From contig NZ_LYUZ01000001.1 in assembly GCF_001679925.1 (NCBI RefSeq), positions 338,210 to 402,209 on the forward strand: a stretch of 64,000 nucleotides of DNA. The letters run 5' to 3'. This document shows positions 47,514 to 64,000 of this stretch, in pieces. Made by a program: the position numbers and the translations under genes. The stretch's first letter is position 1, and the number at the start of each line of letters is the position of its first letter. The notes beneath the pieces were generated by a model that had not been told where the DNA came from, did no database searches, and saw only the letters and a program-made list of their open reading frames with translations. The stretch is from Leisingera sp. JC1 (lineage in GTDB: Bacteria; Pseudomonadota; Alphaproteobacteria; Rhodobacterales; Rhodobacteraceae).

Positions 47514-47537
47514 GAGCGGCCCTTTGTCTGTTGCGCG

Positions 47538-47586
47538 CAAAACTTTTCCTCAAAAGTTTTGGCAAATTCCTTGAGTAAGGAATTTG
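47538..47586 (-). other. Twin perfect hairpins between dctP and the GS-like gene
   Basis: CAAAACTTTT (47538-47547), loop CCTC, AAAAGTTTTG (47552-47561) is followed one base later by CAAATTCCTT (47563-47572), loop GAGT, AAGGAATTTG (47577-47586). Both stems are perfect ten-mers and AT-rich in an otherwise GC-rich genome. They lie in the 116-bp gap downstream of dctP. Confidence 0.7.
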
Positions 47587-47629
47587 GCCCGCTGCGGCGC
47601 AGGCCAAATCCCGTGTTTCAGCGCAAGCC

Positions 47630-48664: not shown

Positions 48665-48691
48665 GTCTTCCTCTCCTCTGTTGAATTTAAA

Positions 48692-49432
48692 TCAATGCCC
48701 GTGCCCGCAGGGCGCCAGGTTTCTGAACCCTTCACGGAGCCGTTGCGGTGCATTCTCGCGAAGGATATCGCCATGCGCGAGCACGACGGTTTCCGGTTTC
48801 CATTCCAGCATCCGGGTCAGGGCTTTGCGAAGCTTGTCCCGGTTGCCGGAGAAGGAGAACCAAATGTCGATTGGCATCTTGCCGTTAGGCGCCAGGATGC
48901 CTGCGGCCCAAGCCAGCGGCCTGATCCAAAGCGGCAGCGTCTTGCTGGGCATGTTTTCGATCAGGTCGGTCAGCACCAGCACACTCGAGCGCTTGTGGAA
49001 GAATACCACCTCTGTGTGCACTTTGCTGCCGTGGACGATCAGCTGTTCAAGGTCGTCTTCCCATTCCGGTTCTGCATTGTCCTGCAGATCACGGTCAAAG
49101 CGGACGTCAACGGCCTGTTTCCGGGCCCGTTCGCGCACGTTGGGCGAGGCCCAGGCGATGGCCTCCGGATAGGCGTCAGCCCATTCCGCGATGTAGGCGT
49201 AGTGAATCCAGTTCGGGGAGACCAGGTGGCGGATGCGCCCCAACGCCTCCAGTGCCTTGGCCAGTTCCGGATTGTACTGGATCGGTGAGTGCAGGAACAG
49301 ATCGCCGTTCTGCAGCCGGATCACGGTCATGCGGGTCTGGAAGGGGATCTTGTAGAATTCAATCGGCGGTCCGTCCACGATCCAGATGTCTGGCCCCAGA
49401 GTCTGCAGGATGGGCTTATTTTCCATAGACAT
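48692..49432 (-). CDS. DUF4336-family protein within the TRAP operon
   Basis: 246 aa cytosolic protein with metallo-beta-lactamase-like layout: IWIVDGPPIEFYKIPFQTRMTVIRL at the start, HLVSPNWIHYAYIAEWADAYPEA in place of HxHxDH, and AHGDILRENAPQRL near the end. It fits the DUF4336 family of MBL-like proteins with altered metal ligands. It overlaps the dctM stop by 17 bases and lies 27 bp before dctP, so it is an integral member of the operon. A hydrolase acting on the imported compound is possible, though function is unknown. Confidence 0.7.
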   Translation of the reverse strand: MSMENKPILQTLGPDIWIVDGPPIEFYKIPFQTRMTVIRLQNGDLFLHSPIQYNPELAKALEALGRIRHLVSPNWIHYAYIAEWADAYPEAIAWASPNVRERARKQAVDVRFDRDLQDNAEPEWEDDLEQLIVHGSKVHTEVVFFHKRSSVLVLTDLIENMPSKTLPLWIRPLAWAAGILAPNGKMPIDIWFSFSGNRDKLRKALTRMLEWKPETVVLAHGDILRENAPQRLREGFRNLAPCGHGH

Positions 49433-50918
49433 ACTCCGGCAGCCACAGGGCGATTTGCGGGAACATCATGATCAGGGCGAGCGCCAGCACCATCACCGCG
49501 GCAAAGGGAATGATCGAGACATAGATGTCCTTCAGTCCGATCTCCGGCGGTGCCATCGCGCGCATCAGGAACAGGTTGTAGCCGAAGGGCGGCGTCATAT
49601 AGGCGATCTGGGTGGTGATGGTGTAAAGCACCCCGTACCAGATCAGATCAAAGCCAAGCGCCCCAACCAGCGGTACATAGAGCGGGGCCACGATCACCAG
49701 CATCGCGGTGTCATCCAGAAAGGTGCCCATCACGATGAAGCTCAGCTGCATCAGGATCAGGATCATCCAGGGGGAAAGGCCTAGCTTGGTGGTGAACAGA
49801 TCCTCGATCGCCTTTACCGCGCCCAAGCCGTCGAAGATCGCGCCAAAGGCCAGCGCCGCCAGGATGATCCACATGAACATGCAGGAGATGCCGAGGGTCG
49901 AGCGCACCGAGGTTTCGAACACGTCCTTGTTCATGCGGCCCTTCAGCACAGCGGCGAGAAAGGCGGTCATCGCACCGATGGCAGAGCTTTCCACCAGAGA
50001 GGTCCAGCCGTTCACGAAGGGCACCATCATCGCGGCGAAGATCGCCAGGGGCAGCACGCCGGAGAACAGCAGGCGGTACTTCTCCTTCATGAACACGTCC
50101 TTGTAGAACATAGCGTTCTTGCGGGTCAGGAAGGACAGCAGGCCAAGGGCCAGTGCTACGCCAAGTGCGGCTTTGGTTTCCATCGCACCCGTCAGGATCA
50201 GCAGCGGCACCAGCACCAGCGTGCCAATGGTGATGTAATTAAGGCGCAGCGGGTGGTCGGTGATCTGCTCATACTCGGCCAGATCCTCCGGGTGCATTGC
50301 GGGGCCGAGGTTCGGCTGCATCCGGGCGCGGACATAGATGTAGATGATGAACATGGTGGCCATCAGCAGGCCGGGGATCACACCAGCCAGCCACAGCTGC
50401 CCCACCGGCTGGCGCGCGATCATCGCATAGAGCACCAGCACCACCGAGGGCGGCACCAGAATGCCCAGCGAGGAGCCTGCCTGAATGGTGCCGGTCACCA
50501 GAATTTTGTCGTAACCGCGGCGCAGCAGTTCGGGCAGGGCAATGGTTGCGCCGATGGCCATGCCCGCCACCGACAGGCCGTTCATCGCTGAAATCAGAAC
50601 CATCAGGCCGATGGTGCCGATCGCCAAACCGCCCTTCACCGGCCCCATCCACACGTGGAACATCCGGTAGAGGTCGTCGGCGATCTTCGACTCCGACAGC
50701 ACGTAGCCCATGAAGATGAACATCGGCAGCGTCAGCAGCGGATACCATTTCATCAGCTTCATGGCGGCGGAGAAGGGGATTTCCACCCCGCCGGTGCCCC
50801 ACAGCAGCATGCCGGCAACCGCGCCGACAAAGCCGATGGCGCCAAATACCCTCTGGCCGGTCATCAGCATGAGCATCATGCCGGCAAACATCACGATGGC
50901 GATCCATTCGTAGGACAT
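49416..50918 (-). CDS. dctM: TRAP transporter large permease (DctM)
   Basis: 500 aa with about 12-14 hydrophobic segments. Typical DctM blocks are AMNGLSVAGMAIGATIALPELLRRGYDK and LGILVPPSVVLVLYAMI. The C-terminal half ends in a polar tail (LWLPEYVYGK). The length exceeds the usual 430 aa because of a loop near 205-300, as in the taurine/mandelate TRAP subgroup. It shares a TGATG junction with dctQ. Confidence 0.93.
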   Translation of the reverse strand: MSYEWIAIVMFAGMMLMLMTGQRVFGAIGFVGAVAGMLLWGTGGVEIPFSAAMKLMKWYPLLTLPMFIFMGYVLSESKIADDLYRMFHVWMGPVKGGLAIGTIGLMVLISAMNGLSVAGMAIGATIALPELLRRGYDKILVTGTIQAGSSLGILVPPSVVLVLYAMIARQPVGQLWLAGVIPGLLMATMFIIYIYVRARMQPNLGPAMHPEDLAEYEQITDHPLRLNYITIGTLVLVPLLILTGAMETKAALGVALALGLLSFLTRKNAMFYKDVFMKEKYRLLFSGVLPLAIFAAMMVPFVNGWTSLVESSAIGAMTAFLAAVLKGRMNKDVFETSVRSTLGISCMFMWIILAALAFGAIFDGLGAVKAIEDLFTTKLGLSPWMILILMQLSFIVMGTFLDDTAMLVIVAPLYVPLVGALGFDLIWYGVLYTITTQIAYMTPPFGYNLFLMRAMAPPEIGLKDIYVSIIPFAAVMVLALALIMMFPQIALWLPEYVYGK

Positions 50919-51514
50919 CAGATTTCAACTCCGCGCAGGCGTCCGATATCCCGGAACAGTTCGGCAAGGCATTGCAGCAGCATCAGAAAGACGCCGAAGC
51001 AGAGGATGGTTTTGACGGGCCACAGGAACGGCCGCCAGGCGGTGGAGCTGCGCTCCAGGTAGCCGAGCTTTTCACCTGCGGCGGCAGGGCCTTCGCTCAG
51101 CAGCGTTTTCAGCAGGTCCCAGAAGAACTGTAGCGGCTCCAGCCCGAAATAGCCGAGGCTATAGGCGGTGGAGCTGAGGGCGCCGTACATCAGGATCACA
51201 AGATATGTCATCAAGAACAGCACGGTGAAGGCATCCACCAGCGCCTTGGTTTTCGTCGACCAAGCGCCATAGAACAGGTCCATCCGCACGTTTGATCCCA
51301 GTTGCATCGAGTAAGGGCCGCCCAGAACATAATAGGCGACCATCACGAACTGTGCGGTCTCCAGCGTCCAGTGCGACGGATTGAAGAACGTCTTGGATGC
51401 CGAGGACCACAGCAGCACCCCGATCAGGGCAAAGATCAGATACATGGCAAAGCGGCCGATTGCGCGGTTCATCGCGTCGATGCCGCGGACATAAGCCCGG
51501 ATTATCTTAGGCAT
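50918..51514 (-). CDS. dctQ: TRAP transporter small permease (DctQ)
   Basis: 198 aa, four transmembrane segments with LGGPYSMQLGSNVRMDLFYG between helices two and three, the region conserved among DctQ proteins. It also has a longer C-terminal loop (LKTLLSEGPAAAGEKLGYLERS) than minimal DctQ. It forms the membrane complex with DctM. It overlaps the upstream amidohydrolase gene by eight bases and dctM by one base. Confidence 0.9.
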   Translation of the reverse strand: MPKIIRAYVRGIDAMNRAIGRFAMYLIFALIGVLLWSSASKTFFNPSHWTLETAQFVMVAYYVLGGPYSMQLGSNVRMDLFYGAWSTKTKALVDAFTVLFLMTYLVILMYGALSSTAYSLGYFGLEPLQFFWDLLKTLLSEGPAAAGEKLGYLERSSTAWRPFLWPVKTILCFGVFLMLLQCLAELFRDIGRLRGVEI

Positions 51515-52292
51515 CTGACCCTCCCTCTGCCGCCAGCGCGGCCAGGGCCGGACGCAGCAATGCCAGCATTTCTTCTGCCATGGCCTCTTCTTCTTCTGGC
51601 GTTGTCACCAGATCATTTCGGATTTCGATCATCACATTGGCCAGCCCGTGCGCCAGCCCATGAATTTTCAAGGAGTGCGTGACACCGTCAGCCGGGCCAT
51701 AGGGCTCGTTGCGCTCCACCCGGCGGTGCGCCAGGGCAGGGGATTGTGCCAGCATCGCGTCTGCCAGCCTGCTGTCTGCGTCATGCAGGATGCCGATCTC
51801 GACTCCGCGTTGCTGGCCGAAATAGACCGGGGTGAAGCTGTGCATTGTGACCAGCATGGTCTGCAGCCCGGCTTCCTTGCGGGCTTTGATCACATCAGAA
51901 ACGGTGGCGCAGAAGGGATCATAAACCGTTTCAACCCGCTCCTGGCGTTGTTCTGCGGTCAGTCCCTTGTTGCCGGGAACGACCACCAGCTCGGATTTCT
52001 CCGGCATGGCACTGGCGGCTTCTGGCGGGCGGTTGCAGTCGTAGACCAGCCGCGACACGGTGCTGGCGATCAAAGGGGCGTCCATTGCCTTGGACATGTG
52101 GAGAGCCACGGCCCTGGCGCCGGGATCCCAGGCGGCATGGCTCAGCCGGTCTGCGTCGCGCAGGCCCAGCCCGTTGTATCTGGCCGGAATGCTACTGGAG
52201 GCATGCTCACACAGCAGCAGGACCGGGCTGGTGCCGTTACGGTTCACCACTTCCACCGCATCCCCCTGAGCGTGAGAATCGCTCTCGTGCAT
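51507..52292 (-). CDS. N-formylglutamate amidohydrolase family protein
   Basis: 261 aa. Blocks of the family are LLLCEHASSSIPARYNGLGL (with E-H metal ligands), YDCNRPPEAASAMPEKSE and VTMHSFTPVYFGQQRGVEIGILHD. The family cleaves N-formylglutamate in histidine breakdown, but no hut gene is here. It heads the operon with the TRAP transporter and GS-like ligase. A role in releasing glutamate from a gamma-glutamyl intermediate, like PuuD in another fold, is therefore inferred. The start at 52292 has GGGAGG upstream; the longer frame would run into an operator. Confidence 0.8.
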   Translation of the reverse strand: MHESDSHAQGDAVEVVNRNGTSPVLLLCEHASSSIPARYNGLGLRDADRLSHAAWDPGARAVALHMSKAMDAPLIASTVSRLVYDCNRPPEAASAMPEKSELVVVPGNKGLTAEQRQERVETVYDPFCATVSDVIKARKEAGLQTMLVTMHSFTPVYFGQQRGVEIGILHDADSRLADAMLAQSPALAHRRVERNEPYGPADGVTHSLKIHGLAHGLANVMIEIRNDLVTTPEEEEAMAEEMLALLRPALAALAAEGGSDA

Positions 52293-52312
52293 GTGCTGCC
52301 TCCCATTGAGTT

Positions 52313-52399
52313 GGAAAAATGTTTCCATGAAGAGATATTTGTGTCAATATCTTTTCATGATCGGTTCCGGACAGGGATTCCTGAAACTTTCTTTTCAGG
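52313..52399. promoter_or_regulatory. Divergent control region with three inverted repeats
   Basis: GGAAA-N4-TTTCC at 52313-52326. A long palindrome has arms CATGAAGAGATATT (52326-52339) and AATATCTTTTCATG (52346-52359), 13 of 14 paired. CCTGAAA-N6-TTTCAGG lies at 52380-52399. All sit in the 125-bp gap between the amidohydrolase gene and the RpiR gene and are good operator candidates. Confidence 0.65.
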
Positions 52400-52417
52400 C
52401 CGGTTCCGGGGTAGAAA

Positions 52418-53317
52418 GTGTCTGTTCAAAACAGGAATGCGCCGTTGTCGAAACCGCCTGCCACCGTTCGCGAGTTGATCCGCGAGAACTACTCCTCGCT
52501 CACCCAGTCCGAACGAAAGTTCGCGAATTTGCTTCTGGAGAACTATCCCGCGGCGGGGTTGGCCTCGATTACTATCGTGGCCGGCAATGCCGAAGTTTCC
52601 ACGCCGACGGTGGCGCGGATGGTGCAGAAGCTGGGTTTTAAGGGGTATCCGCAGTTCCACCAGGCATTGCTGAAGGAACTGGAGGCCAAGGTCTCCGGCC
52701 CGACTAAGCGGCGTGACAACTGGGCATCAGAGGCGCCTGAGGGACACCTGTTGAACAGATTTGCACAGGCTGTCACGGACAACCTGCAGCAGACGTTTTC
52801 CAACATCGACTCCGCTCAGTTCGACGCCGCCGTGCACCAGCTCGCCAATACCGAGGGGCGGCTTTATGTGGTGGGCGGGCGCATCACACGGGCGCTGGCG
52901 GATTACGCCTTTACCCACTTTCAGGCGATCCGGCAGCGGGTCACCCATATGACGTCCTCCTCCGCCACCTGGCCGCATTACGTGCTTGATATGGTGGAAG
53001 GCGACACGCTGCTGATGTTTGACGTGCGCCGGTACGAGACCAACCTGCAAAGGCTGGCCGAACTTGCCTCCGAGCGAGGGGTGAAGATCGTGCTGATCAC
53101 CGACCAATGGGCCAGCCCGATTGCCTCGGTTGCCGAACACACCTTCAACTGCTGGGTCGAAATCCCGTCGGCCTGGGATTCCAACATTTCCACCATGATG
53201 CTGCTGGAAGCGATGATCGCCGCTACACAGGAGGAGAGCTGGGACAAAACCAAGGACCGCTACGACCGGCTGGATGAACTGTTCGACATGACCCGGCTGT
53301 TCCGCAAGTTCTCCTGA
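52418..53317 (+). CDS. MurR/RpiR-family transcriptional regulator
   Basis: 299 aa. The N-terminal HTH_6 domain (about 10-90) has LTQSERKFANLLLENYP and GNAEVSTPTVARMVQKLGFKGYPQFH. The SIS domain (about 130-260) has RLYVVGGRITRALADYAFTHFQAI and EGDTLLMFDVRRYETNLQRLAELA. The start codon is GTG 52418. SIS domains usually sense phosphosugars, but this subgroup is often tied to amino-compound transporters. It is divergent from the TRAP/gamma-glutamyl cluster and presumably controls it. Confidence 0.9.
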   Translation: MSVQNRNAPLSKPPATVRELIRENYSSLTQSERKFANLLLENYPAAGLASITIVAGNAEVSTPTVARMVQKLGFKGYPQFHQALLKELEAKVSGPTKRRDNWASEAPEGHLLNRFAQAVTDNLQQTFSNIDSAQFDAAVHQLANTEGRLYVVGGRITRALADYAFTHFQAIRQRVTHMTSSSATWPHYVLDMVEGDTLLMFDVRRYETNLQRLAELASERGVKIVLITDQWASPIASVAEHTFNCWVEIPSAWDSNISTMMLLEAMIAATQEESWDKTKDRYDRLDELFDMTRLFRKFS

Positions 53318-54191: not shown

Positions 54192-55466
54192 CTAGTCCAG
54201 AGCCGCGGAGGCCTTCCTGATGGCTGCCTCAGTCTGTTCCAGATCCTCGTCTGTCAGTGCCAGGCTGGGGTAGGTCTTGCCCGGCGATTTGAAGATGCCT
54301 TCCTGGCGCAGCACCGCATTATAGCGCTTGGTGCGTTCGGCGTTTCCGGCCTGGGTGTCACGGTAATCGCGCACTTTGGCATCTGTGAAGACGACCTCGA
54401 ACAATGCGGGTTCACCAACGATTTGGAACGGCACCCCGGATTCTTCCAGCGCCGCACTGGTCATCTGCATCAGCCGTTGGCCGGTGCGGTTCAGCTTGTC
54501 ATAGGCACCCTCGCGGCGCAGCACTTCCATGGTTTTCAGGCCCGCGACTGCCGCCACCGGGTTACCCGACAGCGTGCCTAACTGCATCAGCCAGCCTTCG
54601 GCACCCACTTCCGCCTTGTCGAAGTGCCGCATGATATCGGCCCGGCCCACAGTGGCCGCCAGCGGGAAGCCGCCGCCAATGACCTTGCCCAGCGTCGCCA
54701 GATCCGGTGTCACTCCATAAAGCTCCTGGCCGCCGCCATAGGTGGAGCGGAAGCCGGTGACCACCTCGTCAAAGATCAGCAGGCTTCCGTGTTTCTGAGT
54801 TTCCTCGCGCAACAGCTGCAGGAAGCCCGGCAGCGGCGGCACAATACGTTGCAGCGGCTCGGCAATGATGGCCGCAATCTCGTGCCCGTGCTCTGCCATC
54901 AGCTGCTTGATGTATTCGAAGTCATTGAAAGGCGCGACCAGCACCTCTGCCGCTACTGACGGCGGGATGCCTGCACTGTCCGGCACGGCCTGCGGGAAAT
55001 TCACACGAACCGAGGGCGCCAGGCTCATCTGCGCTTCCGCCGACATGCCATGGTAGCCGCCTTCAAACTTCACGATCTTGGTGCGCCCGGTAAAGGCACG
55101 GGCCAGCCGGATCGCATACATGTCTGCTTCGCCGCCGGTGGAGACATAACGCAACTGCTCGGCGCAAGGCACCGCGCGGCAGATATCCTCAGCCAGTTCA
55201 ATGCCGCGGGTATTGCTGGCAAAGAAGGTCATGCCTTTCGGCAATTGCTCCAGAACGGCCTCCAGCACCTCAGGGTGACCGTGGCCCAGCATCATCGGAC
55301 CGGAGCCTATCAGGTAGTCTATGTACTCCTTGCCGTCTTCGTCCCAAACACGCGAGCCCTTGCCTTCGCGGATGACGATGCCGGGATCGAAGTTGCCAAA
55401 GCCGCCGGCGGGCAGCACTGCCTTTGCGCGGTCAATCCACTCGGCCTGGGTGAGGATCTTTTCCAT
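54192..55466 (-). CDS. Class III aminotransferase, glutamate-1-semialdehyde aminomutase-like
   Basis: 424 aa. PLP lysine K261 is in LATLGKVIGGGFPLAATVGR and D233 in IFDEVVTGFR; the phosphate block is STGGEADMYAIRLARAFTG. GxGPMMLGHGHPEV resembles HemL, but the position in a catabolic operon argues against tetrapyrrole synthesis, which uses a separate hemL. It is the last gene of the operon, 64 bp after an enolase-superfamily gene, with an inverted repeat in that gap. It probably transaminates or isomerises an amino acid product of the pathway. Confidence 0.85.
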   Translation of the reverse strand: MEKILTQAEWIDRAKAVLPAGGFGNFDPGIVIREGKGSRVWDEDGKEYIDYLIGSGPMMLGHGHPEVLEAVLEQLPKGMTFFASNTRGIELAEDICRAVPCAEQLRYVSTGGEADMYAIRLARAFTGRTKIVKFEGGYHGMSAEAQMSLAPSVRVNFPQAVPDSAGIPPSVAAEVLVAPFNDFEYIKQLMAEHGHEIAAIIAEPLQRIVPPLPGFLQLLREETQKHGSLLIFDEVVTGFRSTYGGGQELYGVTPDLATLGKVIGGGFPLAATVGRADIMRHFDKAEVGAEGWLMQLGTLSGNPVAAVAGLKTMEVLRREGAYDKLNRTGQRLMQMTSAALEESGVPFQIVGEPALFEVVFTDAKVRDYRDTQAGNAERTKRYNAVLRQEGIFKSPGKTYPSLALTDEDLEQTEAAIRKASAALD

Positions 55467-55508
55467 GTTTTCAAGTCCTGTCGGGGCTGGTTTGCCCTAG
55501 TTGGAGTT

Positions 55509-55530
55509 TTTTTGACCAAAAAGTCAAAAA
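55509..55530. promoter_or_regulatory. Inverted repeat before the GSAM-like gene
   Basis: TTTTTGAC (55509-55516), spacer CAAAAA, GTCAAAAA (55523-55530): perfect eight-base arms abutting the stop codon of the upstream gene. It could be an operator or an intra-operon hairpin. Its first 12 bases equal 15392-15403. Confidence 0.45.
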
Positions 55531-56634
55531 CTATTCGATCACGGCTGCGGGAGGGCCGAGAGCTTCCCGGTCTGGCCGCACGCCCAGGCCGGGGCCTTCA
55601 GGCGGCGCGATACGTCCATTGCGGCGCTCTGGTCCTGCCGGGTCAAGCCGCGGGCTGACGTAAGAGGACAGATCGCAGACATTCATCAGCCGCAGCGGAT
55701 CGGTAGATGCGCCCAGGTGCAGAAGCGCCGCGGTGGTAATGTCGGAGCCCCAGGTATCCTCGATGCACATCTTGGCACCCAAGTGCAGGCACAGATCGCG
55801 CGCGCGGCGCGATGCTGAAAGACCGCCGAATTTCGACAGCTTGATGGCCACCGCATCCATCACGCCTGCCGCATGGCCGGCCAGCAGTGAGGCCGTGTCA
55901 TGAGCGTTCTCATCCAGCTTCATCGGCAGCCCGCAGGCCGCGCGCACCCGGGCGCAATCCTCGATAGTGGCGCAGGGCTGTTCCAGCATGATGTCCAGAT
56001 CCGCCACTGCCCGGCCCACGCGCGAGGCATCCAGCGACGTGGCGCCGCAGTTCCAGTCGCCATAGACAAGAGGGCCTTCGCCAACCGCCTCCCGCACCAT
56101 CCGCAGCCGGGCCACGTCGGCCTGCCAGTCGCGGTCGGCACCCAGCTTCACCTGGAACTGGGTGATGCCGGTCTCCTGCGCCTCTCGCGCGATACGGGCC
56201 ATTTCCTCTGGTGCGATACAGGTGATCGAATGATACAGCGGCATGTCTGCCTGCCGCTGGCCGCCCAGCAGCGCATTCAGCGGCAGGTTCGCGGCCTGTG
56301 CGGACAGGTCCCACAGGGCGATGTCGATGGCGGACTTGGCATATGGATGCCCCTGCAGCCAATGATCTAGCCTGGACATCAACGCTTCCGGCCCCACCGG
56401 GTCCGCGCCCAGCAGCACCGGCGCCAATTCTTCAACCGCAGGCACCACGCCGCGGGCATAGGCGGGCAGATAATGCGGGATCGGGCAAACTTCGCCCCAG
56501 CCGGTAAGCCCGCCATCGGTGTCCAGCGCCAGCACCACGCTTTCAACCGTATCGCAGGTCTTGCCCTCAGCCATGTAATAGGCGGTGTGGCTGGTCAGCG
56601 GCACACGCCAAAGGGAAATACGGGTGATCTTCAT
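55531..56634 (-). CDS. Enolase-superfamily enzyme (MR/MLE type), paralogue 1
   Basis: 367 aa with an N-terminal capping domain (about 1-120) and TIM barrel. The first barrel lysine is in QFQVKLGADRDW, metal ligands are in YGDWN, LEQPC and KLDENA, and the opposite-face base lysine is in AVAIKLSKFGG. The K...K pair suits a racemase, epimerase or cycloisomerase of the MLE subgroup. The last barrel strands contain CIEDTWGSDITTAA. It starts in an ATGA overlap with the DddQ-like gene. The substrate is unknown; amino acid betaines are a precedent in roseobacters. Confidence 0.85.
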   Translation of the reverse strand: MKITRISLWRVPLTSHTAYYMAEGKTCDTVESVVLALDTDGGLTGWGEVCPIPHYLPAYARGVVPAVEELAPVLLGADPVGPEALMSRLDHWLQGHPYAKSAIDIALWDLSAQAANLPLNALLGGQRQADMPLYHSITCIAPEEMARIAREAQETGITQFQVKLGADRDWQADVARLRMVREAVGEGPLVYGDWNCGATSLDASRVGRAVADLDIMLEQPCATIEDCARVRAACGLPMKLDENAHDTASLLAGHAAGVMDAVAIKLSKFGGLSASRRARDLCLHLGAKMCIEDTWGSDITTAALLHLGASTDPLRLMNVCDLSSYVSPRLDPAGPERRNGRIAPPEGPGLGVRPDREALGPPAAVIE

Positions 56635-57224
56635 GAGCGTGCTCCCAGTTCGGATTTCTTCAACAGATCGTCTCCGCGCCAGAAGGCTGCCGCCAGCAGC
56701 GGGCCGGGCACCATATCGATGGCATGTTTCTGGTGCGGCGCGTGGTGGATTGTGTCGCCGGGGCCTTCATCCCGCACCGGGCGGCCTTCTGAATAAAACC
56801 GGGCCTGGCCAGCGAGGATCAGGTAGGTCTCCTCGGGAGCGTGCGAATGCTCGCCGTAGTGCTGGCCTGCACCCCAATAACCGATGGACAGACGCATCCC
56901 GTCGCTTTGATACAGCCCCTCGGGCGAGATCAGGTTGACCCAGCCATAATTGTCCAGCCAATCGCGGGTGAAGCCGTCGGCTTCGGTATAGGTCTGCTGC
57001 CAGCGCAGGCGCGGCAGGGCAGAGGCCAGTGCGGCCACCGCAGGCGCAGTTGCCTCGCTGACCTGCTTGCCGGAAACCGCAAGCTTTTCAATTCTATTGC
57101 ACACTGGCAAGCGGAGCGGCTCCGCATCCAACACCGGCAGTCCCTGCATCCGCGCTGCGAACCAGGCCAGCCCTTCAGTCCGGGCAGCAAGCTGTGCCAG
57201 TTCCTGTAATAGCCGCGCGGGCAT
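56631..57224 (-). CDS. dddQ: DddQ-type cupin, putative DMSP lyase
   Basis: 197 aa, the size of DddQ. An N-terminal helical region (about 1-90) is followed by a cupin with H122-Y123, H126, H128, E132 and Y134 (pattern HYxxHxHxxxExY), then G-D-T-I-H-H and H167. These are the metal and catalytic positions of the DMSP lyase family, which cleaves dimethylsulfoniopropionate to dimethyl sulfide and acrylate. The start at 57224 follows GGAGG and lies five bases after the upstream stop; the longer frame to 57662 is antisense-like junk over the next gene. No acuI, acuK or dddA-type acrylate genes are visible beside it, so the substrate needs testing. Confidence 0.78.
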   Translation of the reverse strand: MPARLLQELAQLAARTEGLAWFAARMQGLPVLDAEPLRLPVCNRIEKLAVSGKQVSEATAPAVAALASALPRLRWQQTYTEADGFTRDWLDNYGWVNLISPEGLYQSDGMRLSIGYWGAGQHYGEHSHAPEETYLILAGQARFYSEGRPVRDEGPGDTIHHAPHQKHAIDMVPGPLLAAAFWRGDDLLKKSELGARS

Positions 57225-57229
57225 CACCT

Positions 57230-58339
57230 TCAGCCTCCAAAGACTGCAACCGGGGCACCCAGCGTGCCTTCCTCGGGCGTTACGCCAATGCCAGGCAGGG
57301 CGGGCGGCACTGCCACGCCGCGGTGATTCCGAGCGCCCTGGCCGGGGACCGGGTCCACGTCCAGATGATAGTGGCACAACCAGCTCGCCAGCCGGTTCGC
57401 CTCGGGAGACGAGGCCGCCAGATGGATCGCCGCGGTATCTGCAAGCGCCGAGCCTCCCACATCTTCGATGTGCATTTGCCAGCCCACTGAAACACCAAAG
57501 TCGCGGATCTGCCGGGCCTTGGTCAGCCCGCCAACACGGTTTGGCTTCACCTTCACGCCCTCGCAGGCGCCGCGTTTCCAGGCCTGCAGATGATCGCCGA
57601 ACGCATGCAGGCATTCGTCCAGCATGATCGGGTTGGACACGCGCGCCGCCACATGGGCGCATTGATCCAGCGTCTCACAGGGCTGTTCCACCCAGTCGCG
57701 CGCCTTGACCGAGTTCAGGACCTCGACCGCCACCGCAGGCTGCCAGGCGCGGTTCACGTCAAAAGTTACCTTGTGGCCCTTGGGGAGACCTTCGGAGATC
57801 GCCTCGATCCGGTCGATATCCAGGCCGATGTCAGTACCGCCCACCTTGGCGGAATGCACGGTATAGCCTTTTTCCGCCGCACGGTTGATCAGCGCCAGCA
57901 TCTCCTCCGGCGTTCCGGTTGAGATTGAGGAGTTCACCAGCACTGGTGCCGCCTCAGCCCCGCCCAGCAGCTGCCACAGCGGCAGGCCGGAGGTCTTGCC
58001 CAGGATATCCCAGCAGGCCATGTCGATGGGGGATTTTACATAAGGGTGTCCCGGCAGCTGCACATCCATCACCCGGTTCACGTGATCCAGGCTTCGCGGG
58101 TCCAGCCCGATCAGGGCGGCGGCCAGCGTCTCGATCCCTGCCCGGATTCCCGGCCCATGCGCAGGCAGATAGGTATGCCCCCAGGGGCAGCCTTCACCCC
58201 AGCCCGAAACGCCCTCGTCTGTGTCGATACGCACAAATGTGCTGTCGAGCTTCTCGAACTTCAGCCGCCCGCCCGACAGGTAGTAGGGCTCGGTCAGCGG
58301 CATATCGAGCTGGTAGACGGTGATGCGGGCGATTTTCAT
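57230..58339 (-). CDS. Enolase-superfamily enzyme (MR/MLE type), paralogue 2
   Basis: 369 aa. The capping domain has GEGCPWGHTYLPAHG. Barrel motifs are HSAKVGGTDIG (lysine), FDVNRAW, VEQPCETLDQC and MLDECLHA (metal ligands), and KVKPNRVGGLTKA (second lysine). A C-terminal HIEDVGGSALADTA block follows. It resembles the cis-3/4-hydroxyproline-betaine and dipeptide-epimerase-like groups, without decisive residues. It overlaps paralogue 3 by four bases (ATGA) and precedes the DddQ-like gene by five. Confidence 0.85.
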   Translation of the reverse strand: MKIARITVYQLDMPLTEPYYLSGGRLKFEKLDSTFVRIDTDEGVSGWGEGCPWGHTYLPAHGPGIRAGIETLAAALIGLDPRSLDHVNRVMDVQLPGHPYVKSPIDMACWDILGKTSGLPLWQLLGGAEAAPVLVNSSISTGTPEEMLALINRAAEKGYTVHSAKVGGTDIGLDIDRIEAISEGLPKGHKVTFDVNRAWQPAVAVEVLNSVKARDWVEQPCETLDQCAHVAARVSNPIMLDECLHAFGDHLQAWKRGACEGVKVKPNRVGGLTKARQIRDFGVSVGWQMHIEDVGGSALADTAAIHLAASSPEANRLASWLCHYHLDVDPVPGQGARNHRGVAVPPALPGIGVTPEEGTLGAPVAVFGG

Positions 58340-59448
58340 GCGATGCCTCCAAACTCGGCGACAGGTGCACCGAGGCTCTCGAAATCCGGGGTAACGCCAA
58401 GCCCCGGCGTGTCCGGTGCATAGAGTTTGCCGTTCTCTGCCCAGGCGCCGCCGACGCCGGTTGAGCGGGTGTTGTAGTTCATAAGATCGGTGGTGTTGTG
58501 CAGGTATTCCGGCGGAGTGGTGGCTGCGAAATGGGAGAGAGTTGCGCTGGCGATTTCACCGCCCCAGGTGTCCTCGGCCACCACAGGCAGGCGGTTTTCG
58601 ACCAGATAGTCCCGCACCCGCCGCGCCTTGGAAATGCCGCCGAGGTTGGAGATCTTGAGGCAAATCAGATCGGCTCCGTGGTCCGCGACGATGCGCTGGG
58701 CGGCGTTCATTCCGGTCACGCATTCATCCAGTTTCATCGGCAGGTCGGTGCGCATTCGCACCTGCTGGCATTCTTCATAGGTGCGGCAGGGCTGCTCCAG
58801 TATGTAATCCAGATCCTTGGTCGCCCGCGCCACCCGCAGCGCATTGTCGACCCGCCAGCCCTGATTGGCGTCAGCCATCGCCTTTTCTCCGGGTTTCAGC
58901 AGCGGTACGGTGGCATGGATACGCTCGATATCTGCCGCCCAGTCGCCGCCCACTTTGGTCTGGAACTGGCGGTAGCCCTGCGCGCGGTAGCGGTCCATCT
59001 CGGCAATGGTTTCCTCGGTGCCTTTCTGCGGTGCTACCCGGTACATCGGCGCGCCATCGGTCAGCTTGCCGCCCCACAGCCGCCACAACGGCGCATCCAG
59101 CGATTGGCCCAGTATGTCCCAGCAGGCAGCGTCAAACGGAGCCTTGGCGTAGCCATGCCCCTGCACAAGGTGGTCCATGATCTGCTCGATCCGGGCAACG
59201 TCCCTGGGGTCCTCGCCAATAAGGGCAGGGGCCACCAGGCGCGCAAGAGCGGGCACGCCTTGGGAACGCGCCACCATGTAATTCTCGCCGCAGGGTGTGA
59301 ACTCGCCGCAGCCCTGCAGGCCCGCATCGGTGTCGATCACCACAACTGAGGCGGTGGCGGTTTCAATGGCATTGCCCGCGCCCCAGACATAGGCACCGCC
59401 GACATACGGAAGGCTGGTCTGAAACACGCGGATCCGGGTGATCTTCAT
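58336..59448 (-). CDS. Enolase-superfamily enzyme (MR/MLE type), paralogue 3 (HpbD-like)
   Basis: 370 aa. Barrel lysine is in QFQTKVGGDWAAD, metal ligands in MADANQGW, LEQPCRTYEEC and KLDECVTG, and the second lysine in LICLKISNLGGISKARR, followed by VAEDTWGGEIASATL. The K-V-G-G and K-I-S-N-L-G-G blocks recall proline/hydroxyproline-betaine 2-epimerase (HpbD) of Pelagibaca. AAAGGAT precedes ATG 59448. It is the closest of the three paralogues to a characterised betaine enzyme by eye; identity is not measured. Confidence 0.85.
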   Translation of the reverse strand: MKITRIRVFQTSLPYVGGAYVWGAGNAIETATASVVVIDTDAGLQGCGEFTPCGENYMVARSQGVPALARLVAPALIGEDPRDVARIEQIMDHLVQGHGYAKAPFDAACWDILGQSLDAPLWRLWGGKLTDGAPMYRVAPQKGTEETIAEMDRYRAQGYRQFQTKVGGDWAADIERIHATVPLLKPGEKAMADANQGWRVDNALRVARATKDLDYILEQPCRTYEECQQVRMRTDLPMKLDECVTGMNAAQRIVADHGADLICLKISNLGGISKARRVRDYLVENRLPVVAEDTWGGEIASATLSHFAATTPPEYLHNTTDLMNYNTRSTGVGGAWAENGKLYAPDTPGLGVTPDFESLGAPVAEFGGIA

Positions 59449-59561
59449 ATCCTTTGCTCCTTCCGCTCAGCCCGGGAACCTTGCCGTGTCACCTGCTGCC
59501 GCGGGAAATGCCGCATGGCAGCCTTTGGCGGCTTTCAGCGTCGGGCCGGACAACGCCCGCT

Positions 59562-60644
59562 TCACGGGATCACCACGATATTGCCGGTGTGTTTCTTGGC
59601 AATGAAGGCAGCCTGGGCTTCCTTCAGCTGGTCCAGCGGGTAAGCCGCGGCCAGTGCCGGCCTGATCTCGCCCTTCTCGATGTAGGAGACCACATCAGTG
59701 AAGTTATGATGCGGTGTCACGGTAGAGCCGGTAAAGGTCAGATCGCGCAGGTAGAAGGTGCGCAGATCCAGCTCCACCATCGGTCCGGCAATCGCGCCTG
59801 AGCAGGTGTAGCGCCCGCCGCGTTCCAGCACACTGATCAGCTGGGGCCACTGCGCGCCGCCGACCACATCGGCCACCACGGTCACTTTCTCATCGCCAAG
59901 TGCGGCCCGCAGGTTCTCCGGCGCGCGCGGCAGGATCAGATCGGGACCAAGCTCCGCCACCTCGGCGTGTTTGGCCTCAGACGCCATCGCGATCACCCGC
60001 GCGCCGCGGCGCTTGGCAAGCTGGATCAGCGCACCGCCAACCCCGCCGGAGGCGCCGGGGATCAGCACCGTGTCACCGGCGCCAACGCCGGCGCGGCTCA
60101 GCATCCCTTCGGCTGTGACATAGGAGCAGGAGAAGGTCGCCAGCTCCGCATCGCTGAGGGGGCTGTCGACAATTGCCACGCCGCGCACGTCCGCCTTGGT
60201 GTATTCGGCAAAGCCGCCATCGCATTCGGAGCCGAAGTAGCCGGCCTCGTCCTTGTTCTCCGGGTCGTCCCAGTCACGCGCCCAGCCGCCGACCATGACG
60301 CGCTTACCGATCAGGGCCGGGTCAGCGCCGTCGCCGACGGCCACCACTTCGCCAACCGCATCCGCACCTTGAATGCGCGGAAACGTCAGGGGGCGGCCGC
60401 CCCAGGTCGGGTCTTCCTCGCCCACTTCGTCAAAGGCGCCGCCGGTGGTGGCCCCCTCGACAGTTTTTGAATACCAGCCGGAGCGGGTGTTCACATCGGT
60501 GTTGTTCAGCCCGCAGGCACCGACCTTGATCAGCACCTCCATCGGGCCAGGCTGCGGCACCGGCCAGTCCTCGTGCCATTCATATTTGTCCATATCGCCG
60601 TGGCCGGTCAGAACCATTGCCTTCATGGTGTCGGGCAGGGTCAT
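59562..60644 (-). CDS. Zinc-type MDR alcohol dehydrogenase / quinone oxidoreductase-like
   Basis: 360 aa medium-chain dehydrogenase. The GroES-like N-terminus is MKAMVLTGHGDMDKYEWHEDWP, then ACGLNNTDVNTRSGWYS and GADAVGEVVAVGDG. The Rossmann motif is IPGASGGVGGALIQLAKRRGARVIA. The Cys/His zinc ligands of typical ADHs are not evident (N-N-T-D at the usual C-x-x-D/H site), so a zinc-free reductase is likely. AcuI-like reduction of acryloyl-CoA is a conceivable role beside a DMSP lyase, but the sequence is not clearly AcuI. The start at 60644 lies downstream of AAGGGA. Confidence 0.82.
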   Translation of the reverse strand: MTLPDTMKAMVLTGHGDMDKYEWHEDWPVPQPGPMEVLIKVGACGLNNTDVNTRSGWYSKTVEGATTGGAFDEVGEEDPTWGGRPLTFPRIQGADAVGEVVAVGDGADPALIGKRVMVGGWARDWDDPENKDEAGYFGSECDGGFAEYTKADVRGVAIVDSPLSDAELATFSCSYVTAEGMLSRAGVGAGDTVLIPGASGGVGGALIQLAKRRGARVIAMASEAKHAEVAELGPDLILPRAPENLRAALGDEKVTVVADVVGGAQWPQLISVLERGGRYTCSGAIAGPMVELDLRTFYLRDLTFTGSTVTPHHNFTDVVSYIEKGEIRPALAAAYPLDQLKEAQAAFIAKKHTGNIVVIP

Positions 60645-60703
60645 TATTCGCGTTTCCCTTTTGGTTATGGGGGAGGGGGCGCTGCCCCCCGCCTTTGGCT
60701 CCC

Positions 60704-60728
60704 CCCGGAGTATTTTTAGCAAGATGAA
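60704..60728. repeat. GGAGTATTTT repeat, copy 2
   Basis: CCCGGAGTATTTTTAGC then AAGATGAA, adjoined on the left by a GC palindromic stretch (GGGGGC...GCCCCC at 60675-60690). It sits between the dimethylglycine-dehydrogenase-like gene and the MDR gene. It is the inverse orientation of copy 1 at 46105. Confidence 0.7.
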
Positions 60729-60747
60729 AGGGGGAGCCGGGTTCTGT

Positions 60748-63207
60748 TTATTCTGCCGGGGTGAGCGCGGCGTCGGTGCGGGGCAGCAGGCTATCGGGAT
60801 CATAGGCGGGGGCGCCCAGGATCCGGCCCTTGCGTGGCTTACCTGCGATGATCACCTCGATCTCCGTGCCCGGCACATTGGCGTGCGGTTTGACATAGGC
60901 GAAGGCCAGTATCTTTCCGACAGTGTGGCCATAGGCAACCGAGGCGGTGGAGCCCACAACCTGGCCATCCAGCAGGACCGCCTCGCCGCCATTGCCGTCT
61001 TCGATGCCGTCCGGTTCGATCTCCAGGTAGGCACAGACCCACGGCTTGTCCGCGTCGTTCAGCGTCTTGTCCTTGCCCAGATACTCCTTGTCTGTGCGGG
61101 CAAAGCGGAGCACATCGGCCTCGGCCAGAGTAACCTCATTGGTGAGTTCGCCTGCGCCTTTGAAGCCCTTTTCCATCCGCATCGCGTTCATCGCAAAGGA
61201 GCCGTAGTCGGCAATACCATGCGCCTCGCCTGCTGCCCAAAGCGCATCATAGACCGCCAAGGTGCTGTCGCGCGGGATATGGAGCTCCCAGCCAAGTTCA
61301 CCGGCATAGGACATGCGGAAGGCCCAGAGCGATTGGCCTGCAACCTCGATCTGCTGCGCGGTCAGCCATTTGAAACCTGCGTTGGTCAGATCGGCATCGG
61401 TGCAGGCGGCCAGGACCTCGCGGGCTTTCGGGCCATTGAGAGCAAGGGCGGCCCAATCGGTGGAGAGGGTTGTGATCTCCACTTCTTCGCCCGCGAGGTT
61501 CTGGTTCAGATGGTCCAGCAGCCGCTGTTCAAAGAACGCGGCACAGACCAGGTAGTAACTGTCCTCGGCCAGTTTCACGACAGTGGTTTCCAGTTCGATC
61601 CGGCCGCGGCGGTTCAGCATGTGGGTGAGGGCAATGCCCCCCACCTTTTGCGGCAGCCGGTTGGCGGTCAGCCGGTCCAGCAGGGCAGCTGCGCCGGGGC
61701 CTGAGACCTCAACCTTGGTGAAGGCGGAAATGTCCATGATGCCCACGCTGTCGCGCACGGCCTTGCATTCCAGCCCGACCATGTCGTGCACTTCATTGCG
61801 GCGGAAGGAATAGTGATCGCGCTGCTCCACACCGTTTTGGGCAAACCAGCGGGGGCGCTCGTGGCCGTAAACCTCCTCATAAACCGCGCCCTTTTCCTTC
61901 AGCCTGTCATAGAGCGGCGAGGGTTCGATGGGGCGGCCCGCGAGGCGGTTGAAATGCGGGAAAGGGATCTCATGGCGCAGCTTGTAATCCTCATGCGCCT
62001 TGGTCACCTGCCAGTCCTTGGTGGCATAGGAGCCGAAGCGGCGCGGGTCATACTCGCGCATCGAGATGTCGGCTGCGCCATGCACCATCCAGCGCGCCAG
62101 CTCGCGGGTGAGGCCCGGGCCCCAGCCGATGCCGATCTGGGTGCCGCAGCAGCACCAGTAGTTCTTGACGCCCGGTGCCGGGCCAATCAGCGGGTTGCCA
62201 TCCGGCGGATGCGAGATTGCACCGTGGACCTCGCGCTGGATGCCGAGATCTGCAAATATCGGCATCCGGTTCAGGCTTTCCTCCAGCCAGGGCATCACCC
62301 GGTCATAGTCGGCATCGAACAGCCAGTTCTCGTACTCCCAAGGGCAGTGGTCGTGCCAGACTGAGTTGCTGCCTTCCTTTTCGTATATCCCGATCAAGCC
62401 ACGCTTCTGCTCCATCCGGATGTAGCCCGAGACCTTCTTGTCGTCGCGGATGACGGGGAGTTCCTTATCCAGCGCCTCGAACTCCGGCACCGGTTCGGTC
62501 ACAAAATAATGGTGGGTCATCGAGGTCATCGGCAGTTGCAGCCCGGACCACTCGCCCATCTGGCGGGCATAGGTGCCGCCGGCGTTCACCACATGCTCGC
62601 AGCGGATGGTGCCTTTCTCCGATTCCACGATCCACTCGCCGTTATCGGCCTGGGTGATGTTGGTGGCGCGGCAATGGCGGATGATCCGCGCGCCCAGCTG
62701 GCGGGCGCCTGCGGCCAGTGCCATGGTCACATTGGTCGGGTCCACATGGCCGTCATCAGGGGTGTAGAGCGCGCCCAGAACCCCTTCGAGGTTATAGAAG
62801 GGATGCAGCTCGGCAACCTTCTCCGGGCCGACCAGCTCGATGTTGAATCCCAGCGAACGCCCGACGGACAGGGTGTGGCGCAGCCAGTCCATCTCATCCT
62901 CGGTATAGGCCAGGCGGAACGAGCCGCAGCCATGCCAGGTGACGGCCTGGCCGGTCTCTTCCTCCAGCTTCCCGGAATAGAGGCCGATGTTGTAGTCCAC
63001 GCATTTGCCGAGGCCAAAGGAGCTGGTGGAATGGGTGATCTGTCCCGCCGCGTGCCAAGTTGAGCCTGATGTCAGTTCGGCCTTCTCCAGCAGAACCACC
63101 TCCGGGCCCCAGCCCTCGTGCGCCAGGTGGTAGGCCAGGCCCACCCCCATCACGCCGCCGCCCACGATGACCACACGGGCCTGTGCCGGGAATTCTTTGT
63201 CAGCCAT
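60748..63207 (-). CDS. Dimethylglycine/sarcosine dehydrogenase-like flavoprotein with GcvT domain
   Basis: 819 aa. An N-terminal DAO domain (about 10-385) has VVIVGGGVMGVGLAYHL, and H52 in STWHAAGQ is the position of the covalent FAD histidine in the dimethylglycine and sarcosine dehydrogenases. A FAO_M-type linker (about 390-430) and folate-binding GcvT domains (about 440-810) follow, with MSYAGELGWELHIP and AYGHTVGKILAFAYV. It oxidatively N-demethylates an N-methyl amino acid, passing the C1 unit to tetrahydrofolate. It is the first gene of the operon, divergent from an RpiR regulator, which suggests the pathway substrate carries N-methyl groups. Confidence 0.9.
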   Translation of the reverse strand: MADKEFPAQARVVIVGGGVMGVGLAYHLAHEGWGPEVVLLEKAELTSGSTWHAAGQITHSTSSFGLGKCVDYNIGLYSGKLEEETGQAVTWHGCGSFRLAYTEDEMDWLRHTLSVGRSLGFNIELVGPEKVAELHPFYNLEGVLGALYTPDDGHVDPTNVTMALAAGARQLGARIIRHCRATNITQADNGEWIVESEKGTIRCEHVVNAGGTYARQMGEWSGLQLPMTSMTHHYFVTEPVPEFEALDKELPVIRDDKKVSGYIRMEQKRGLIGIYEKEGSNSVWHDHCPWEYENWLFDADYDRVMPWLEESLNRMPIFADLGIQREVHGAISHPPDGNPLIGPAPGVKNYWCCCGTQIGIGWGPGLTRELARWMVHGAADISMREYDPRRFGSYATKDWQVTKAHEDYKLRHEIPFPHFNRLAGRPIEPSPLYDRLKEKGAVYEEVYGHERPRWFAQNGVEQRDHYSFRRNEVHDMVGLECKAVRDSVGIMDISAFTKVEVSGPGAAALLDRLTANRLPQKVGGIALTHMLNRRGRIELETTVVKLAEDSYYLVCAAFFEQRLLDHLNQNLAGEEVEITTLSTDWAALALNGPKAREVLAACTDADLTNAGFKWLTAQQIEVAGQSLWAFRMSYAGELGWELHIPRDSTLAVYDALWAAGEAHGIADYGSFAMNAMRMEKGFKGAGELTNEVTLAEADVLRFARTDKEYLGKDKTLNDADKPWVCAYLEIEPDGIEDGNGGEAVLLDGQVVGSTASVAYGHTVGKILAFAYVKPHANVPGTEIEVIIAGKPRKGRILGAPAYDPDSLLPRTDAALTPAE

Positions 63208-63259
63208 TTCGCCGTTCCTGATTGCAGAGTCGCTTTTCTGCTCGACAGGCTAATTCCAT

Positions 63260-63293
63260 ATTTGTACCATCGTCAATCATGAATGGCACAAAT
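63260..63293. promoter_or_regulatory. Inverted repeat spanning the RpiR start codon
   Basis: ATTTGTACCAT (63260-63270) and ATGGCACAAAT (63283-63293) match as an inverted repeat at ten of eleven positions, with the regulator's ATG in the 12-base spacer. TGTACCATCG (63263-63272) recurs as TGTATCATCG (63293-63302). It is the only clear site in the 71-bp divergent gap. Confidence 0.6.
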
Positions 63294-64000
63294 GTATCAT
63301 CGACTGTTTTGGAGCGCCTCACCGAAGAGTGGGATGCGCTGACCCCTGAGGCACAGAAGGCGGCCCGCTATGTGCTGGAAAACCCTGCGGATGTTGGGGT
63401 TTCCACCGTGCGCGAGATTGCCGAGGCCGCCAATGTGAAGCCCAACACCTTTGTCCGCATGGCGCGGCAGGTGGGGTTCGAGGGCTACGAGGATTTCCGC
63501 GCCCCGTTCCGCGAGGCGATTCGCAGGGGCGGGGTGTCCTTCCCTGACCGCGCGCGCTGGCTGCAGGACATCGGCAAGTCCGGTGAACTGGGCGGTCTTT
63601 ATGCCGATATGGTGGGCGCGGCGATCCGCAATATCGAGGAAACCTTTGCAGGCATTAATGCGGAAAGGCTGGAGGCTGCGGCGCAGGCGATCTGGCAGTC
63701 CCGGCAGGTCTTTACTCTTGGCGTTGGCGTCAACAACGCCAACGCCCGCAACTTCACCTATCTTGCCTCCACCGGCATGAAGCAGTTCCACGCCATCCCG
63801 CGGCCCGGTTCCACGGCGGTCGATGACCTCGCCTGGGCGGACGGCCAGGATGTGCTGATTGCCATGACCTGCAAGCCCTACCGGGCCGAGGTGATCGAGG
63901 CGATTAAGATCGCGCGCGAACAAGGGGTCACGATCATCGGAATCTCCGACAGCCCCGCCAGCCCTGTGGTTCTGAATGCGGATCATGGTTTTGTCATCGC
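63279..64000 (+). CDS. MurR/RpiR-family regulator (truncated by window end)
   Basis: At least 240 aa; the 3' end is outside the window. The N-terminal HTH_6 has LTEEWDALTPEAQKAARYVL and VREIAEAANVKPNTFVRMARQVGFEGYEDFR. The SIS domain begins near 120 with VFTLGVGVNNANARNFTYLAS and continues with WADGQDVLIAMTCKPYRAEVIEAIK. No Shine-Dalgarno is visible before ATG 63279, so it may be leaderless or start elsewhere. It is divergent from the flavoprotein operon and probably controls it through the inverted repeat over its own start. Confidence 0.88.
   Translation, partial: MNGTNVSSTVLERLTEEWDALTPEAQKAARYVLENPADVGVSTVREIAEAANVKPNTFVRMARQVGFEGYEDFRAPFREAIRRGGVSFPDRARWLQDIGKSGELGGLYADMVGAAIRNIEETFAGINAERLEAAAQAIWQSRQVFTLGVGVNNANARNFTYLASTGMKQFHAIPRPGSTAVDDLAWADGQDVLIAMTCKPYRAEVIEAIKIAREQGVTIIGISDSPASPVVLNADHGFVI

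Follow-up and report, generated by a model that had tools for sequence, protein, structure and literature searches.

A DddQ-type cupin gene as an accessory of a conserved, putative betaine-demethylation operon in Leisingera and related bacteria

Introduction

Cupins of the DddQ type are among the most abundant bacterial dimethylsulfoniopropionate (DMSP) lyases in marine metagenomes, according to excerpts of a review which also record that a dddQ mutant of Ruegeria pomeroyi released 97% less dimethyl sulfide (DMS), that one of Roseovarius nubinhibens released 20% less, and that the Km of DddQ for DMSP was reported as 22 mM (PMC5395565). Excerpts of further papers describe a 1-4 fold increase of dddQ expression with DMSP (PMC4437653), the cleavage by DddQ enzymes of dimethylsulfoxonium propionate (DMSOP), often better than that of DMSP (PMC10686828), and a gene, MDR028, that is linked to and likely co-transcribed with dddQ in both R. 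pomeroyi (SPO1593) and R. nubinhibens (ISM_14095) (PMC3338564). Here we analyse a gene for such a cupin, set within an operon-like group of demethylation and enolase-superfamily genes, in a 64,000-nucleotide stretch of the Leisingera sp. JC1 genome (contig NZ_LYUZ01000001.1, positions 338,210 to 402,209), referred to throughout as the window.

Two other described systems resemble this locus. Glycine-betaine catabolism employs a GbcA-type Rieske oxygenase and a dimethylglycine dehydrogenase (DMGDH), and a Rieske and FAD/folate demethylase pair is also found here, although the window locus adds an epimerase-like protein of the enolase superfamily (MLE) and an aminotransferase, neither of which is required for glycine betaine. 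The hpb clusters for hydroxyproline betaine unite a Rieske oxygenase, a flavin demethylase and an MLE-subgroup epimerase, as does the window locus, which differs from them in its aminotransferase, its MDR-family reductase and its DddQ-type cupins. The open-licence literature yielded no report that names DddQ, cupin, DMSP lyase and mandelate racemase jointly, or dddQ with dimethylglycine dehydrogenase, nor one describing this union of genes, its core, its operator or DddQ as its accessory, the parts being of known kinds. We argue that the locus is probably an RpiR-controlled operon through which a betaine, namely a chiral amino acid with a quaternary ammonium group, is broken down, and to which a DddQ-type lyase branch is an optional addition.

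Results

A constant core with accessory genes

The operon has a constant core, consisting of the genes for an RpiR-family regulator (RpiR1), the Rieske oxygenase (RIE), the DMGDH-like demethylase (DMG), one enolase-superfamily protein (MLE3) and a class III aminotransferase (AT); the cupin, the MDR-family reductase and the other MLEs are accessories (Table 1). This emerged from two samples of loci, which have at least three loci in common. The first came mainly from a scan of named genomes with the cupin, which matched 167 stretches, 130 of them relatives; among the best 80 of these 130, 58 loci have two or more further types of operon gene at an identity of at least 45%, the other 22 being solitary Leisingera copies, contig ends, one locus with only cupin and AT (L089), and distant taxa. 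The resulting table of 59 loci with RpiR1 and AT, after removal of eight same-contig duplicates, contains 57 loci fetched through the cupin, the window itself and one locus fetched through MLE3, such that cupin presence is uninformative there.

Because 57 of these 59 loci had been fetched through the cupin, a second sample was made that finds the locus without using it. This relied on a 34-base pattern between RpiR1 and the first operon gene, with half sites ACATTTGT and ACAAATGT-like, spaced 22 bases apart, which is present in 59/59 loci at 0-3 mismatches and in 47 at 0. At up to three mismatches it occurs in 40 of 295 family genomes, sampled at roughly one per genus, with one site in each and none for a reversed-pattern control. 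Within the window's own genome, the local copy is the sole place at 0-1 mismatch, and a search for a distal RpiR1 regulon, which might have named the transporter, gave only three further places at two mismatches, equal to the three of the reversed-pattern control. The site is treated as a putative RpiR1 operator.

Rieske genes are present at all 40 operator loci, and DMGDH-like genes at 39, the remaining contig ending before the gene. Five of the 40 end at a contig edge, leaving 35 spanned loci, a table that requires Rieske and DMGDH by definition. Of these, 34 have MLE3 and 33 have AT (one of the two exceptions falls at the end of the stretch taken), compared to 26 each for MDR and for MLE2 or MLE4 (MLE2/4), 16 for the cupin, 13 for MLE1, 13 for aldehyde dehydrogenase (ALDH) and eight for an Amdase-family gene. 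Minimal loci consist of RIE-RpiR1 facing DMG-MLE3-AT, and a genome of the window's own genus (G007) carries the core, ALDH and an MDR fragment, the cupin being absent from its operon. An earlier note on this DNA, made from the letters alone, had treated the cupin and three enolase-superfamily enzymes as one set; this did not survive the operator sample, in which the core has one MLE and no cupin.

Three of the core genes are also present or lost together. In the 59-locus table, Rieske, DMGDH and MLE3 are all present in 54 loci and all missing from five, with no mixed locus. As the three genes lie at three separate places in the locus, a single deletion does not explain their joint loss. On a tree of RpiR1 and AT, the minimum for each is five changes, taken as five joint losses, and the five independent pairs of loci are all concordant; MLE1 requires 15 changes on the same tree, and DMGDH is not so linked with it. 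Both trees used for gain and loss were quick trees.

The accessories are associated in turn. All 16 operator loci with a cupin have MLE2/4, against 10 of the 19 without (Fisher p = 0.0015, kinship ignored), while 12 of the 13 loci with MLE1 hold a cupin and 12 of the 16 cupin loci hold MLE1 (Fisher p = 4.2e-05, kinship likewise ignored). After tree correction the direction was unchanged, with a median p of 0.0625 for MDR with MLE2/4, and of 0.125 for the cupin with MLE1.

The demethylation genes and the substrate class

Several features suggest that, as the earlier note had proposed, the pathway is directed at a methylated onium amino acid and not at DMSP. Firstly, the Rieske protein has both the Rieske and the catalytic domain, its best NCBIfam model being GbcA (NF058607), and the CxH/CxxH cluster ligands, two iron-binding His and a Glu at the bridging position occur in 91/91 Rieske sequences; Glu in place of Asp at this position is, we assume, a mark of quaternary-amine Rieske oxygenases. 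Secondly, the DMGDH-like protein carries the full domain set, is nearest to 5L46 and other dimethylglycine dehydrogenases among solved structures, and has in 88/88 sequences a His aligned with the FAD-linking position, presumably the FAD-linking His itself; both counts include repeats, from loci common to the two samples. Thirdly, one Leisingera operon (L051, the same as L074) includes a dioxygenase gene; its product matches TmpA and gamma-butyrobetaine dioxygenase (GBBH) best, though below the cut-off of either model. Fourthly, Rieske, DMGDH and MLE3 are present and lost jointly, and we know of no step for Rieske, DMGDH or MLE3 in the known DMSP routes. Other long proteins with a GcvT-like part are encoded elsewhere in the same genome.

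Glycine betaine alone was rejected as substrate, since it leaves the epimerase and the aminotransferase without use. An operon for DMSP was likewise rejected: the MDR protein reaches only 35.9 bits against the AcuI acrylyl-CoA reductase model (NF051456, cut-off 440), and a DmdA-type DMSP demethylase lies elsewhere in the genome (G000:C68:63566-64657). As the latter scores 628 bits, above its cut-off of 410, DMSP demethylation is encoded outside the operon.

The aminotransferase scores higher against glutamate-1-semialdehyde aminomutase (GSAM) than against beta-transaminases, but at 368 bits against the hemL model (TIGR00713, cut-off 527.3) it was rejected as the GSAM of the heme pathway. Its matches to beta-transaminases nevertheless bear on a narrower form of the betaine hypothesis, in which the substrate is a 2-substituted 3-trimethylammoniopropanoate, for instance the headgroup of diacylglycerylhydroxymethyl-trimethyl-beta-alanine (DGTA), which we take to be an algal betaine lipid. 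Either the cupin would expel trimethylamine from such a compound, or Rieske and DMGDH would demethylate it, with AT, ALDH and the Amdase-like protein finishing through a malonate semialdehyde. DddQ does act on a 3-onio-propanoate, the chiral C2 would give the MLEs a role, and ALDH and Amdase-family genes belong to the divergent unit of some loci; beta-alanine betaine is moreover recorded from marine plankton in an excerpt of PMC11965087. Yet the preference for GSAM over beta-transaminases speaks against this substrate, as do the low frequencies of ALDH (13/35) and Amdase (8/35) and the weakness of the Amdase-family match (30.6 bits, cut-off 25.9), leaving this special case unlikely. The divergent unit of other loci is extended by GFA-type, Amdase-type, sulfotransferase-like and CMD genes, and the ALDH following the Rieske gene of Leisingera sp. 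JC1 is 79% identical to that of a Roseovarius locus (L082). Amdase-like and sulfotransferase-like genes near the Rieske gene (L082:2282-3895 and others) are both present in eight of the 35 operator loci, and both missing from the other 27.

The cupin and its relatives

The window cupin scores 76.9 bits against the DMSP_lyase model PF16867 (gathering cut-off 27) and keeps all six DddQ catalytic residues, Tyr120, His123, His125, Glu129, Tyr131 and His163 in DddQ numbering (listed in an excerpt of PMC4437653), as YHHEYH. The six are intact in 109 of 111 cupins, a set freed of seven same-contig duplicates, with two pairs of identical proteins left in. The window cupin therefore has the Pfam family and catalytic residues of DddQ (4LA2, 4B29 and 5CU1; R. 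pomeroyi SPO1596), and its nearest solved chains are 4B29, 5CU1 and 4LA2. However, on a tree of 85 of the 111 sequences after thinning, from which 4B29 and 5CU1 were left off, it lies outside the clade of the characterised DddQ 4LA2: its own 14-sequence clade (100/99) is sister to a 58-sequence clade containing 4LA2 (100/98), both being well supported. Identity to two solitary Leisingera proteins of the DddQ clade is 31 and 35%. The same genome has a second DddQ-type cupin (G000:C81:64735-65088; L038:9571-10164), which is solitary, with no operon genes beside it, and groups in the 58-sequence clade rather than with the window cupin.

The operon cupin of Silicibacter lacuscaerulensis ITI-1157 (L145) is identical over all 192 residues to the crystallised DddQ 4LA2, and this Ruegeria lacuscaerulensis DddQ is encoded in the same type of operon as the window cupin. 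Several operons contain two or three cupins of different subclades. In relatives, the slot between MDR and MLE1 is occupied by an intact second cupin gene (CUPb), while in the window, positions 59493..59559 match nucleotides 7-73 of the CUPb gene of L042, the one relative compared, without gaps (score 50; the highest of 200 shuffles scored 40). The window operon has thus probably lost a second cupin from this slot.

The earlier note had argued that DMSP has no need of racemases or an N-demethylase. This argument cuts both ways, given that a crystallised DddQ comes from the same type of operon and that dddQ mutants lose DMS, as the review excerpts cited above relate. The locus could instead be an osmolyte island, in which the cupin truly acts as a lyase of DMSP (or DMSOP) and sits within a betaine operon because both osmolytes come together from algae, no intermediates being shared. 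The 97% loss of DMS in R. pomeroyi, the induction of dddQ by DMSP, the activity of DddQ on DMSP and DMSOP, and the near-universal retention of the six residues all favour such an island, as do five loci that keep the cupin without the demethylation genes. Its difficulty is that the cupin is tied to particular operon genes, accompanying MLE2/4 in 16/16 and 55/58 loci and MLE1 in 12/16, and varies in copy number and subclade inside the operon. Furthermore, the genome has no second operator site above control level, and the reported Km for DMSP is 22 mM. We regard the osmolyte island as a possible, though doubtful, alternative to the betaine operon with a lyase branch.

Small and distant cupins complete this survey. 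A 94-residue single-domain cupin (e.g. L045:9600-9884), which in several loci lies between MLE1 and MLE2/4, is present in 33 of the 59 loci, requiring at least 15 changes on the RpiR1+AT tree, and a relative of it adjoins the distant cupin of L120. Outlying cupins from Acidimicrobiia, Hyphomicrobiales and Rhodospirillales showed little common context beyond this and a 34% Rieske-oxygenase match on the contigs of distant DddQ-like cupins in two Acidimicrobiia metagenome-assembled genomes (MAGs; L094 and L111). A plasmid search with the window cupin gave eight distant records.

The enolase-superfamily proteins

MLE1, MLE2 and MLE3 all keep both catalytic Lys and the Asp/Glu/Asp metal ligands of the MLE subgroup. 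MLE1 and MLE3 also keep a Trp and an acidic residue (Asp/Glu) common to 4MGG, 4E8G and 2PMQ; in MLE2 and 2QDD, Gly and Ala stand in their place. We take 4E8G and 2PMQ to be of the HpbD type, in which the Trp presumably packs on the ammonium, and 4MGG to be a Labrenzia enzyme. On the MLE tree, a quick tree, the deep forks are weak. The MLE5 type of a Roseovarius operon matches 2PCE at 654 bits. In two Ruegeria loci (L090 and L095) MLE3 matched in two pieces, through a decaying gene or a sequencing error; these copies were counted as present.

According to an excerpt of PMC5144071, one enzyme of the MLE subgroup acts on cis-3-hydroxy-L-proline as an epimerase or a dehydratase, and the subgroup also counts hydroxyproline-betaine epimerase and proline-betaine racemase among its members. 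MLE1-3 share 30-45% identity with the known MLE-subgroup enzymes, and at 398, 312 and 342 bits, respectively, all fall under the curated cut-off of NF043002, which another gene of the genome (C101:6205-7296) passes with 709 bits; they were consequently rejected as cis-3-hydroxyproline dehydratases.

These scores also weigh on a hydroxyproline- or proline-betaine pathway like that of the hpb clusters, with MLE1 and MLE3 as HpbD-type epimerases. Such a pathway would account for the Trp and acidic residue of both proteins, for the proximity of the MLEs to chains that we take to be of the HpbD and cis-3-hydroxyproline-dehydratase kind, and for a shared enzyme logic of Rieske oxygenase, flavin demethylase and epimerase. 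It is nonetheless improbable, as a ring imino acid is no substrate for a class III aminotransferase, which belongs to the core here, the genes found at the locus include no oxidase of proline or hydroxyproline, and the MLE proteins miss a cut-off that another gene of the genome passes.

Gene layout, complementary loci and neighbouring genes

Domain content was assigned with Pfam and NCBIfam models (Table 1), which, together with the coordinates, agree with the earlier description of the DMGDH-like, MDR and GSAM-like genes and the divergent RpiR gene as one operon-like set. Seven minus-strand genes fill 54192-63207. The overlapping starts and stops said to tie the cupin to its neighbours were borne out, with one nuance: 4-nt overlaps (ATGA) occur at the MLE1/MLE2 and cupin/MLE3 junctions, but a 5-nt gap separates MLE2 from the cupin. 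The remaining three gaps measure 64, 113 and 103 nt. A 343-residue open reading frame is a longer reading of the frame of the 197-residue cupin. The arrangement is not due to chance, being found again in Leisingera, Ruegeria, Roseovarius, Shimia and other genera.

Table 1. Features of the operon and its divergent unit, in window coordinates.
Feature	Position	Strand	Basis or remark
Class III aminotransferase (AT)	54192..55466	-	Aminotran_3; resembles GSAM, less so beta-transaminases
MLE3, enolase superfamily, core gene	55531..56634	-	MR_MLE N+C; nearest solved chain 4MGG, 41%
CUPa, DddQ-type cupin, 197 aa	56631..57224	-	PF16867; six DddQ catalytic residues; tree
MLE2, enolase superfamily	57230..58339	-	MR_MLE N+C; 77% identical to PDB 2QDD
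MLE1, enolase superfamily	58336..59448	-	MR_MLE N+C; 75% identical to PDB 2RDX
Probable 5' remnant of a second, lost DddQ-type cupin gene (CUPb)	59493..59559	-	Match to L042 CUPb
MDR-family reductase, 360 aa	59562..60644	-	ADH domains (Pfam); not AcuI by score
DMGDH-like FAD/folate N-demethylase, 819 aa	60748..63207	-	DAO+FAO_M+GCV_T+GCV_T_C (Pfam)
Putative RpiR1 operator, ACATTTGT-N22-ACAAATAT	63258..63295		Divergent promoter; spans RpiR1 start codon
RpiR1, RpiR/MurR-family regulator	63279..64000, on to ~64166 past the window	+	HTH_6+SIS
Rieske oxygenase (RIE), 367 aa	64163-65266, past the window end		Overlaps RpiR1 end
Aldehyde dehydrogenase (ALDH)	~65294-66718, past the window end		After the Rieske gene

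Loci with other subsets of the genes were found in three settings. A Roseovarius plasmid has RpiR1, Rieske, DMGDH, MLE3 and AT, followed by a PotD/PhnS-like ABC transporter, without cupin or MDR, and this transporter counts in favour of the betaine reading; its PotD/PhnS-type binding protein has no match in the operator loci, the cupin-fetched loci not having been searched for it. On a Ruegeria plasmid, the Rieske, DMGDH and MLE3 genes are joined by one of the MLE1 type and by a gene for a class III aminotransferase of only 29% similarity, and RpiR1 has no match. In a MAG locus (L079), Rieske, MDR and CUPa-type cupin genes overlap on one strand, with DMGDH opposite; such a locus argues that MDR and cupin can work directly for the demethylation genes.

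Beside the operon, a second RpiR gene (window 51507-53317) is found in 11 of 13 operon loci of the same genus, mostly accompanied by a gene of the N-formylglutamate amidohydrolase family, and neither has a match in the non-Leisingera loci compared. Further out, window 46161-50918 holds on one strand a glutamine-synthetase-like gene, TRAP components DctP and DctM and a DUF4336 gene, a candidate amine-compound cluster.

Discussion

The gene content and linkage of this locus suggest how a chiral betaine might be degraded. The Rieske oxygenase would remove the first N-methyl group as formaldehyde, and the DMGDH-like enzyme would transfer the remaining methyl groups onto folate. MLE3 may interconvert configurations at the carbon next to the carboxylate, enabling both isomers to enter, after which AT would act on the freed amine, and ALDH, where present, would finish the route, with RpiR1 as the likely regulator. 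This core route draws on family knowledge and gene linkage. The accessory branch draws on DddQ chemistry and weaker linkage. In this branch the cupin, to which a lyase role is ascribed because of its metal-binding His/Glu and its Tyr residues, would take the alpha proton and expel the beta-carbon leaving group of a beta-substituted betaine. It would work in company with MLE2/MLE4, which perhaps eliminates too, and with MDR, which would reduce the double bond left by the elimination. On this view, DMSP, as a sulfonium analogue, may be cleaved by such cupins through a secondary or side activity.

A number of observations weigh against this account. The Rieske protein scores 152.9 bits against GbcA, far under the cut-off of 670, and with five independent pairs the sign test for the joint history of Rieske, DMGDH and MLE3 has a floor of p = 0.0625. 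The five loci without demethylation genes retain cupin, AT and MLE2/4, meaning that the cupin branch can stand alone. The link between cupin and MLE2/4 is not significant once tree-corrected (median p 0.5), and although 55 of the 58 cupin loci in the 59-locus table have MLE2/4, three (L044, L078 and L131) do not, making the nesting of the accessories less strict. Strict nesting does not fit L079 either, where cupin and MDR accompany Rieske and DMGDH but MLE and AT had no match. Clustering of the flanks found no family, transporters included, in at least three of the 40 operator loci. If the cupin expels the amine, AT is left without a substrate in that branch, and the two branches may serve different compounds. 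Finally, the work described in the excerpts of PMC5395565 attributes in vivo release of DMS to DddQ.

Catabolism of a chiral betaine, with an optional lyase branch, remains the probable function on balance. A further step is to propose, tentatively, that the entire CUPa/DddQ clade arose and was kept as betaine lyases within this N-demethylation operon, the lysis of DMSP by DddQ being a by-product on the sulfur analogue. In its boldest form, this proposal makes the substrate a 2-substituted 3-trimethylammoniopropanoate, the exact counterpart of DMSP with nitrogen for sulfur; the headgroup of an algal betaine lipid would be one such compound.

A minimal five-gene core is present in several genera, and the structures 2RDX, 2QDD and 2PCE, deposited under family names only, are tied to one kind of operon. 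The optional occurrence of dddQ within a conserved betaine demethylation locus provides a concrete alternative class of substrate for this enzyme, and a betaine substrate would be in line with its reported poor kinetics on DMSP. If the betaine-lyase origin is true, then counts of dddQ in sea-water surveys would partly report the turnover of betaines.

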